A DNA stretch of 64,000 nt. It comes from Ruegeria arenilitoris. Lineage in GTDB: Bacteria; Pseudomonadota; Alphaproteobacteria; Rhodobacterales; Rhodobacteraceae. The stretch covers positions 124,001 to 188,000 of the forward strand of contig NZ_WPZQ01000001.1 of NCBI RefSeq assembly GCF_013030265.1, in the 5' to 3' direction. The position numbers were made by a program, and so were the translations under genes. Under the pieces are notes generated by a model. The model saw only the letters and a list, made by a program, of their open reading frames with translations. It made no database searches and had not been told where the DNA came from. Shown piece by piece: positions 47,115 to 48,750 of the stretch. Every line of letters begins with the position of its first letter. Positions within the stretch are counted from its first letter, which is position 1.

Positions 47115-47900
47115 TCAGTTCTGGAGGAACTCGCGCAGCGTAATCTGCCCATCAAAATCAGCATCAAACTCAGCCATCATCATCCGCAGATCATGTTCAG
47201 GGACACAGGCTTTGGCGATGCCTTTAATCTTTCCGTTTTCCACCATTGTCAGGCATTCGGCCGGCAAAGGCTCATCCATTTCGGGATCCGGGAACTCGAT
47301 TATGTCCTGCACATCAACTGCAACGAGTTCATCAGGTGAAACAACGCCATTTTCATCGGCGTCGTATTCCAGAAACTCCATTGCACGCTCTGCCAGAAAC
47401 ACGGTTTCAAACTCGGAATACTCAACATGGCCATCCGCATTTGCGTCGGCACGGCTGATTTCGTCAGCAGCTATTGCTTCTGGCGTGCAGGGTTCAGTGC
47501 TGGCGTCACAATCATCGGGTAGAAACAGCACGTCTTCCTGCGTCAGGAATTGCTGGAACTCAGGCTTTGTGATCACTCCGTCCCCATTTCGATCAAGCTC
47601 GGTGAAAAACATACGGGCCATGGGGGTAGCCTGCGCAGGTGTCTGGGCCGAACCCCAATACACCCCTGCCAGCAACAAGACAGGTAGCACGTAGAGGGTT
47701 TTGGGGGCAAAATTGCTCAATGAGCGAACGGGCATGTCATGTTCTCCAATATTGTCAGATGACGGCCCTGCCAGCTCCCGGTCGATCACACCGCGTACGA
47801 GTTCGCTCATTGACGATCCGCGTTGTTCGCTGAGATCAGCCAGCTTGCTTTTCAACTCATAAGATACGCGAATTTCCAAGGTTTCTGATTTCTTGGTCAT
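47115..47900 (-). CDS. Membrane-anchored ribbon-helix-helix protein with four EF-hands
   Basis: A 261-residue protein with an unusual domain order. Residues 5-46 (LEIRVSYELKSKLADLSEQ, GSSMSELVRGVIDREL) look like a ribbon-helix-helix DNA-binding domain. Residues about 68-85 form one membrane helix preceded by basic residues, predicting the N-terminus inside. The rest has four canonical 12-residue EF-hand loops starting at Asp103, Asp152, Asp180 and Asp246, each with Glu at position 12, and four cysteines (131, 138, 216, 232) suited to periplasmic disulfides. GGAGA nine bases upstream sets the start. A GGAG site before Met56 could also yield a shorter EF-hand membrane protein. Repeated operator-like sites lie in its promoter. 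No close family is known to me. Confidence 0.85.
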   Translation of the reverse strand: MTKKSETLEIRVSYELKSKLADLSEQRGSSMSELVRGVIDRELAGPSSDNIGEHDMPVRSLSNFAPKTLYVLPVLLLAGVYWGSAQTPAQATPMARMFFTELDRNGDGVITKPEFQQFLTQEDVLFLPDDCDASTEPCTPEAIAADEISRADANADGHVEYSEFETVFLAERAMEFLEYDADENGVVSPDELVAVDVQDIIEFPDPEMDEPLPAECLTMVENGKIKGIAKACVPEHDLRMMMAEFDADFDGQITLREFLQN

Positions 47901-47954
47901 ATCGTGTGGTCTCCGGAATACTGTGGGCCTGTCTCTTGCAGTTGGAGCAGACAT

Positions 47955-48032
47955 GGTCCGAAAAATAGCCCAACCCGTGTCCGGCAAACAGGCAAATCGT
48001 GTCCGGACAGTGGTTAATCTGCTGTCCGGACA
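47955..48032. promoter_or_regulatory. Four phased TGTCCGGACA-type sites between the RHH/EF-hand gene and an L,D-transpeptidase gene
   Basis: Two perfect TGTCCGGACA palindromes (48000-48009 and 48023-48032) and two degenerate copies sharing GTCCG (beginning at 47955 and 47978; 7 of 10 bases each) are spaced 23, 22 and 23 bp, about two helical turns. They lie 55-132 bp before the RHH/EF-hand start and 118-196 bp before the divergent gene. Repeated phased sites are typical of ribbon-helix-helix operators. Confidence 0.7.
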
Positions 48033-48150: not shown

Positions 48151-48750
48151 GTGTCCAGTTCCCGTATTAATCGTCGCGCTGCCCTGTTGGGCGTAGCATC
48201 CGCTATTGCCGCACCAACCTTATTGCGCGCCCAAAGCTCCGATGCATTCCCTGAGACTGAAGATGAGATCAGCACTCAATTACCTGTGCGTCGTAATGTT
48301 TCTTCGTTCTCACAGCAGAACTGGCAGGACCATTTTGATGAGCTGGGCGTCGGCTGTCTTCTGGCGGATATCACCAGCCGAGCAGTGCACTATTGGGGAC
48401 CTAATGGCACCTACAAGCTGTACCCAAGCTCGGTTCCAATGAGCGAAGAGCTGACTAAACGCGGATACACCGAGGTTGTCAGAAAGCGTGAAAACCCAAG
48501 CTGGACACCAACCGCATCTATGCGCGAGCGTGATCCATCCCTGCCGATCCGCATGGAGGGTGGCGACCCGGGCAACCCGTTGGGAACCCGCGCGATGTAT
48601 CTGAGCTGGCCCGCCTATTTGGTGCACGGCACCCATGACACACGGAAAATCGGTCGTCAGAGCTCATCCGGCTGCATCGGCCTTTACAACCAGCATGTCG
48701 AAGAACTCTACCCGCTGGTTAAAGTCGGAACCAAGGTCCGGCTCCTCTGA
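48151..48750 (+). CDS. L,D-transpeptidase (YkuD family), Tat-exported
   Basis: A 199-residue protein starting at GTG with a strong AGGAGG site. The N-terminus SRINRRAALLGVASAIAAP is a twin-arginine type signal. The catalytic YkuD motif is seen as YLVHGTHDTRKIGRQ and SSGCIGLYN (nucleophile Cys), followed by VKVGTKVRLL. Such enzymes make 3-3 peptidoglycan cross-links or attach proteins to the wall. It is divergent from the RHH/EF-hand gene across the array of palindromes and may be controlled by it. A terminator follows. Confidence 0.9.
   Translation: MSSSRINRRAALLGVASAIAAPTLLRAQSSDAFPETEDEISTQLPVRRNVSSFSQQNWQDHFDELGVGCLLADITSRAVHYWGPNGTYKLYPSSVPMSEELTKRGYTEVVRKRENPSWTPTASMRERDPSLPIRMEGGDPGNPLGTRAMYLSWPAYLVHGTHDTRKIGRQSSSGCIGLYNQHVEELYPLVKVGTKVRLL

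Follow-up and report, generated by a model that had tools for sequence, protein, structure and literature searches.

How bacteria sense outside calcium and relay it to their genes is poorly understood, and a locus of Ruegeria arenilitoris raises the question of whether sensor and regulator could be one protein. The stretch analysed, hereafter the window, comprises 64,000 nucleotides (NCBI RefSeq assembly GCF_013030265.1, contig NZ_WPZQ01000001.1, positions 124,001 to 188,000 of the forward strand) and carries a 261-codon gene joining a ribbon-helix-helix (RHH) DNA-binding domain, a hydrophobic segment and four EF-hand loops. An initial annotation, made from the sequence of the window alone, had read this gene as a membrane-tethered regulator that responds to periplasmic or seawater calcium by changing its DNA binding. 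The gene appears to be a self-regulator tied to the membrane, of a kind not described before, and it may sense calcium. On balance, the comparative evidence below favours a self-regulating membrane-tied regulator accompanied by an exported EF-hand protein translated from an internal start.

Gene architecture

The single open reading frame (ORF) runs on the minus strand from an ATG at 47900 to a stop ending at 47115, continuous as the initial annotation had described it, and its parts are as follows (in brackets, the basis of each assignment).

47115..47900, minus strand: long ORF of 261 amino acids with RHH domain, membrane/signal segment and EF-hand domain (ORF and full-length homologues)
47911..47914, minus strand: Shine-Dalgarno (SD) core GGAG for the long-form start (sequence)
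47763..47888, minus strand: RHH domain, residues 5-46, whose residue 7 (Thr) covaries with the operator core (profiles, covariation)
47744..47747, minus strand: internal SD core GGAG, 8 nt ahead of Met56 (sequence)
47733..47735, minus strand: internal start Met56, with an EF-hand protein carrying a signal peptide as predicted second product (equivalent SD-backed start in 46 of 51 rows)
47628..47702, minus strand: membrane segment or signal-peptide h-region ending in AQA, residues 67-91 (sequence, hydropathy)
47559..47594, minus strand: EF-hand loop 1, DRNGDGVITKPE, residues 103-114 (Pfam, strict loop pattern)
47412..47447, minus strand: EF-hand loop 2, DANADGHVEYSE, residues 152-163 (Pfam, strict loop pattern)
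47328..47363, minus strand: EF-hand loop 3, DADENGVVSPDE, residues 180-191 (Pfam, strict loop pattern)
47130..47165, minus strand: EF-hand loop 4, DADFDGQITLRE, residues 246-257 (Pfam, strict loop pattern)

The RHH domain proposed for residues 5-46 coincides with a Pfam RHH_1 match at residues 8-43 that is sub-threshold in the window protein, and the assignment agrees with what was found among its relatives. Four of the ten relatives' N-termini scanned pass an RHH-type cut-off (three RHH_1, one of those also RHH_9, and one NikA-like), and a profile of 17 of the 32 N-termini aligned (alignment A3) matched the MazE7 antitoxin in the PDB (6a6x_C, E=6e-4), with VapB26 also among the profile matches. 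It is through these relatives and the MazE7 match that the strand and two helices of the RHH superfamily are recognised. Alternate strand residues face the DNA in RHH proteins, which fits residues 7, 9 and 11 here; residues 9 and 11 are Glu and Arg, respectively, in every row of the 17-row alignment.

Pfam EF-hand_5 covers four stretches of the window protein (E=9.5e-20), and the canonical 12-residue loops begin at exactly the residues given in the initial annotation (103, 152, 180 and 246). All four strict loops are kept in 27 of the first 32 rows of our alignments, the other five retaining two or three. The description of this domain as calmodulin-like holds for the four canonical EF-hands and fails for their arrangement and setting: calmodulin is cytoplasmic and carries its four EF-hands in two close pairs at a spacing of about 36 residues, whereas the loops here are spaced by 49, 28 and 66 residues in a protein with a signal-peptide-like segment and conserved cysteines. 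Membership of the Lanmodulin family (26.4 of the 135 bits needed) and of the XopAW family (38.6 of 120 bits needed) was rejected, each match involving the EF-hand part only. The genome holds one copy of the gene, and the sole other weak match to the RHH profile is a 59-codon frame (E=0.04). A second EF-hand protein of the genome (G000:C18:58578-59078, a 228-codon open frame) gives a match without an RHH part, as is common in the family.

Conservation of the fusion across genomes

The two halves are joined in all 51 intact rows, which come from four taxonomic families, with no stop between them; the broken copies L012 (genome G011) and L017 (genome G018) stand outside these 51, and the EF part of L155 is cut short. 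Because the profile or protein used to collect the rows contained the RHH part, joining in every row is partly a matter of selection, and scans of 394 and 384 genomes of the family are less biased in this respect. Among the 394, matches were bimodal, 10 of the 90 being full length (at least 129 bits) and 80 lacking the RHH part (at most 55 bits), while the RHH profile alone, run against the 384, matched in 12 genomes, namely 10 with the fusion and 2 with other small RHH proteins. The 37 matching genomes among 101 relatives comprise 11 with an intact full-length gene, G011 with a frameshifted one, G018 with a relic and 24 with matches that lack the RHH part; matches of this last kind were left out of the alignments. 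More widely, 27 of 390 genomes of the order matched, 21 of them with the fusion (counting the split G011). At the level of the class, 5 of 385 genomes matched (families f1, f2, f146 and f151), and each of these matches includes the RHH part. In family f146, 32 of 101 genomes matched, and the 20 loci read out of 38 listed in those genomes, one of which is L106, all run from RHH domain through membrane segment to EF-hands, one being truncated. The search for homologues with both halves in one frame, which the initial annotation had proposed, thus recovered the joined form and not a family whose halves consistently lie in separate genes.

Two loci show decay where relatives have intact copies: L012 is frameshifted in the membrane segment and L017 is cut to its first 25 codons. 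A different open frame, L135 (genome G167), apparently has two tandem RHH-like segments and no EF-hands and is perhaps a mobilisation protein.

In a close Ruegeria set, the ratio of non-synonymous to synonymous substitution rates (dN/dS) was about 0.02 for the RHH part (21 of 21 pairs usable), 0.30 for the linker (18 of 21), 0.04 for the membrane segment (8 of 21) and 0.05 for the EF part (12 of 21); the low values of the RHH and EF parts speak against a frame open by chance. In four clades, synonymous divergence itself was 2.5-7 times lower in the RHH part than in the EF part (0.35 vs 2.41, 0.65 vs 1.72, 0.55 vs 1.38 and 0.61 vs 1.83) and was likewise low in the linker (0.30-0.80); a fifth clade, with one pair, was saturated. 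The lower dS of the RHH and linker coding part (47735-47900 in the window, and its equivalents in relatives) suggests a second layer of constraint.

A putative operator at the gene's own promoter

Upstream of the long-form start lie three copies of a short box.

48023..48032, minus strand: distal operator copy TGTCCGGACA, 23 bp before the main site (exact box)
48000..48009, minus strand: main operator copy TGTCCGGACA, at -109 from the long start (exact box)
47978..47987, minus strand: degenerate operator copy TTGCCGGACA, 22 bp downstream of the main site (22-bp spacing recurs family-wide)

Of the 43 rows with Ser, Thr or Gln at residue 7, 39 carry an exact TGTCCGGACA no more than 260 bases upstream. 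A second, degenerate box recurs 22 bp downstream of the best box, with a mean match of 6.38/10 over 32 rows and of 5.62/10 over the 16 divergent rows (those under 60% identity); at other offsets from 11 to 40 the match never exceeds 3.72. When the pair was scored against 300 shuffles, none equalled it in 12 of the 16 divergent rows, and 3 and 2 did so for L062 and L064. Exact boxes are also confined in position: across 18 genomic regions (about 400 kb), all 17 sit at -99 to -188 of the start of this gene, and 14 of the 18 regions have at least one.

Multi-copy or tandem repeats of CCGGACA type occur in genomes G051, G032, G022 and G073, several at contig ends, and are perhaps mobile-element ends or repeat arrays; no link between them and the fusion gene was seen.

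Covariation of residue 7 with the operator core

The box of each row was chosen by its outer letters alone (TGTNNNNACA, flank and partner at 22 bp) and the core was read afterwards. Lysine at residue 7 goes with a CATG core in 6/6 rows, none of which has a CCGG box, and leucine with a GGGG core in 2/2; the rows with Ser, Thr or Gln, in which the exact box has a CCGG core (39/43), include no CATG box (0/43). A tree for which residue 7 had been masked requires four changes of the residue and four of the core, and all three independent pairs agree; the operator core of L061 was set by hand to CCGG in this test, the automatic choice having been the neighbouring box. A single origin of Lys7 was rejected (p-AU 0.0008), a value subject to long branches (L153, L140, and L064 with L105) and to the post hoc choice of the group. 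The conserved operator and this covariation are strong though indirect evidence, on which we consider it very likely that the RHH domain binds the promoter of its own gene.

A candidate internal start and nested product

The initial annotation had suggested that a GGAG before Met56 could allow a second, RHH-free product, and that signal is indeed present. Moreover, of the first 32 rows, 30 carry an SD core followed, at residue 56-67 and just ahead of the signal-peptide-like segment, by an ATG or TTG in frame. With f146, where 16/20 rows have such a start, some with marginal cores and with no background computed, the count is 46 of the 51 rows overall. An SD core precedes the start in 14/14 of the divergent rows that have one, against 32/239 other in-frame start codons, and glycine codons within the SD window are GGA in 10/11 cases against 17/208 elsewhere (p=1.4e-10). 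The residues encoded around the internal SD vary by lineage (Gly-Glu, Lys-Glu, Met-Glu and Arg-Thr, for instance), which indicates that the signal is kept at the DNA level. Dual translation, with an exported EF-hand protein free of the RHH domain as its predicted second product, is therefore probable from the sequence signals.

A conserved RNA structure was considered and rejected: the 5' part gave a better fold than its shuffles did (z -3.57), but in the consensus fold of 7 relatives the covariation term was unfavourable (+2.34), and both sides had changed in just 5/76 pairs.

Predicted topology of the EF-hand domain

A membrane segment had been placed at residues 68-85, and a hydrophobic stretch, of weak hydropathy in the window protein, was found there at about residues 64-85. 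It ends in AQA, an AxA motif, and resembles a cleavable signal peptide as much as a permanent anchor; judged by eye, nearly every row has this AxA-ending look. Of the first 32 rows, 31 (all but L106) have equivalents of Cys131 and Cys216, and 15 have those of Cys138 and Cys232 together. Paired cysteines and the AxA segment jointly indicate an oxidising compartment, and we consider an extracytoplasmic location of the EF-hand domain likely as a predicted topology. The protein would thereby combine what defines a transmembrane transcription regulator, a DNA-binding domain and a membrane pass in one chain.

Genomic neighbourhood

No conserved partner gene was seen in the 18 regions, among ORFs of at least 80 aa. 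Gene families common to at least 4 of these regions are larger and, by eye, mostly metabolic-looking genes, and two recurring synteny groups could be recognised by eye, with mmsA/acyl-CoA dehydrogenase-like and glmU/glmS-like surroundings. Plasmid records gave no match. A divergent gene at 48151-48750 of the window, by eye L,D-transpeptidase-like, shares the box-bearing intergenic region and might be co-regulated; a relative of it neighbours the fusion gene in 4/18 regions.

Proposed mechanism and alternative explanations

We posit that the long form, starting at Met1, would keep its RHH domain in the cytoplasm, where it would dimerise, and that the dimers would bind two or three TGTCCGGACA-type boxes, 22-23 bp or two helical turns apart, at their own promoter, presumably in autorepression rather than activation. 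The hydrophobic segment would span the membrane with the N-terminus inside and place the EF-hand domain in the periplasm, probably held by disulphides in this lineage. Occupancy by outside calcium would most likely alter how the long form dimerises or how stable it is, and hence its DNA binding, resulting in calcium-dependent autoregulation. The short form, starting at Met56, would present the same EF-hand domain behind a normal cleavable signal peptide and be released to the periplasm, where it could act as a calcium buffer, an effector or a competitor of the tethered copy. The membrane-tethered regulator of the initial annotation is supported as to its joined halves; its DNA binding is supported indirectly, at its own promoter, by operator and covariation, and the signal-peptide-like segment, together with the paired cysteines of the first 32 rows, suggests that the EF domain lies outside. 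Calcium control of DNA binding, the remaining element of that proposal, is put forward here tentatively. The same caution applies to the widest form of this reading, a possible new class of one-component transmembrane regulator in alphaproteobacteria in which a membrane-tied RHH dimer would read extracytoplasmic calcium through its EF-hands and regulate its own gene through boxes spaced by 22 bp and a one-residue code, alongside a free exported EF domain; its chances seem to us a little short of even.

A number of observations weigh against this reading. The RHH_1 match of the window protein falls under the curated cut-off of 20.5 bits (14.6 with the whole protein, 18.5 when residues 1-55 were scored by themselves), and an AlphaFold model made from 6 sequences is poor (mean pLDDT 53, with the RHH part below 50), too poor for a fold search. 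The gene is patchy, with 10 intact and 2 broken copies among 54 Ruegeria-group genomes. The best 19-residue Kyte-Doolittle mean of the segment is 1.38 in the window protein, many relatives reaching 1.6-2.4; its signal-peptidase-like AxA end means that cleavage may separate the long form from its sensor; and the cysteine pairs are missing from most f146 rows, which makes this hint of topology lineage-specific. Five rows lack the internal start (L105, L106, L138, L139 and L140), and an energy-based synonymous-shuffle test of the internal SD gave a modest result (Fisher p=0.013 over 14 rows, no single row below 0.05; median p 0.19 for internal starts against 0.68 for 228 control starts).

The operator has similar weak points. 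The sign test on the three independent pairs gives p=0.25, these being too few for 0.05 to be reached. The downstream 22-bp partner is weak in the Lys7 rows (4, 2, 1, 3, 3 and 5 of 6 outer letters), L151, L150 and L062 likewise have no good partner by the same scoring, and the pair matches the CCGG consensus weakly in L096 (13/300 shuffles as good) and L106 (54/300). One-mismatch boxes in the window number 2 against 2.09 expected from shuffles, and a loose pair pattern occurs in 53/101 genomes, at a rate like that of the reversed control, with three overlapping matches at this promoter and one elsewhere in the gene's own genome; with both at chance level, the case for the operator rests on the exact boxes, their place and their conservation. 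No regulon beyond the gene itself was found, the other four TGTCCGGACAC sites of its genome lying inside long open frames with no good 22-bp partner, and a promoter scan recognised no sigma-70-like promoter.

Some of these points recur in the main alternative, which we regard as rather unlikely: that the cytoplasmic precursor represses its own promoter until export moves the RHH domain to the membrane, or has it cleaved and removed, and expression resumes, calcium being merely a ligand of the exported protein and not a sensed signal. A segment that looks like a cleavable signal peptide with AxA in nearly every row, good paired boxes found at the gene itself only, an internal start that would give a conventional secreted protein, and a likeness to autogenous RHH repressors such as PutA, as the accessible text describes it, would all suit such export-coupled autorepression. 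It leaves unaccounted for, however, the fusion of the RHH domain to a calcium-binding protein instead of to other exports, and L105, L106 and L138-L140 have the fusion with no internal start. These same five rows also speak against an improbable variant in which autoregulation by the RHH part and export of an EF-hand protein are two functions that share one frame through translational coupling, the long fusion having no special role. The internal SD and start are strong enough to suit this variant, the SD being much stronger than that of the first start in L014-L016, L093 and L094, but a stop between the halves is absent from all 51 intact rows (although little except a need for the fusion would prevent one), and the RHH part on its own occurs in the 384 family genomes as a relic or in unrelated proteins only.

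It is also conceivable, if highly improbable, that another regulator binds the TGTCCGGACA boxes and that the RHH domain has another role, for example in protein interaction. The marginal RHH_1 scores of several members would be in keeping with this, whereas the change of the operator core with residue 7 of the RHH domain on separate branches, and the occurrence of exact boxes at this gene only in the 18 regions, argue for binding by the protein itself. We thus retain the membrane-tied, self-regulating protein with its nested exported product as the preferred explanation.

Comparison with known systems

RHH repressors of the CopG/MetJ/Arc type and RHH antitoxins are soluble proteins that bind short palindromic boxes at their own promoters. 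The protein described here belongs with them (and with the antitoxins MazE7 and VapB26) by RHH fold family and by the short palindromic boxes at its own promoter. Type II antitoxins lie next to a toxin gene; in the 18 regions no recurrent partner gene was seen here among ORFs of at least 80 aa. The DNA-binding domain of ToxR and CadC is a winged helix, and PutA associates peripherally with the membrane. Like ToxR, CadC and TcpP as presented in the accessible text of a survey of transmembrane regulators (PMC10269533), the fusion is predicted to be a single protein made of a cytoplasmic DNA-binding domain, one membrane pass and an extracytoplasmic domain; unlike them, it has an RHH domain, an EF-hand domain and a candidate internal start for an exported RHH-free form. 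The terms 'ribbon', 'RHH', 'CopG', 'calcium' and 'EF-hand' do not occur in the main text of that survey as available. Trifunctional PutA likewise has an N-terminal RHH domain fused to another function and is an autogenous repressor, according to the accessible text (PMC5293562), but the fused part there is an enzyme, whereas here it is a membrane segment with a calcium-binding-type domain.

Periplasmic EF-hand proteins have been tied to gene regulation in Caulobacter (CaBP; PMC13171946) and Pseudomonas (EfhP; PMC11559002, PMC9132961). CaBP is exported by Sec (PMC13171946), as is predicted for the short form; for neither protein does the available text mention a DNA-binding domain, and their effect on regulation is apparently indirect, unlike that expected of the fusion. 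In the literature searched, which held few subscription papers, no paper pairs 'ribbon-helix-helix' with 'EF-hand', and regulators with an RHH domain and a membrane segment without EF-hands may still be in print. One paper retrieved with 'ribbon-helix-helix' and 'membrane-bound transcription' (PMC10482370) was set aside as not relevant, its accessible text concerning soluble AmrZ and, in the reference list, another regulator.

Implications

The locus suggests that membrane regulators need not depend on helix-turn-helix domains. It places a candidate sensor, a membrane pass, a DNA-binding domain and an operator in one small gene, of which many natural variants are available, along with a natural swap in DNA specificity (residue 7 against the operator core). 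Marine Ruegeria or laboratory E. coli would thus allow direct tests of each of its three aspects: sensing of calcium, DNA binding from the membrane, and nested translation. If the one-residue code is true, a Thr7Lys substitution is predicted to shift preference from the CCGG core to the CATG core, TGTCATGACA. Should the reading as a whole prove true, one gene would serve as sensor, regulator and effector.
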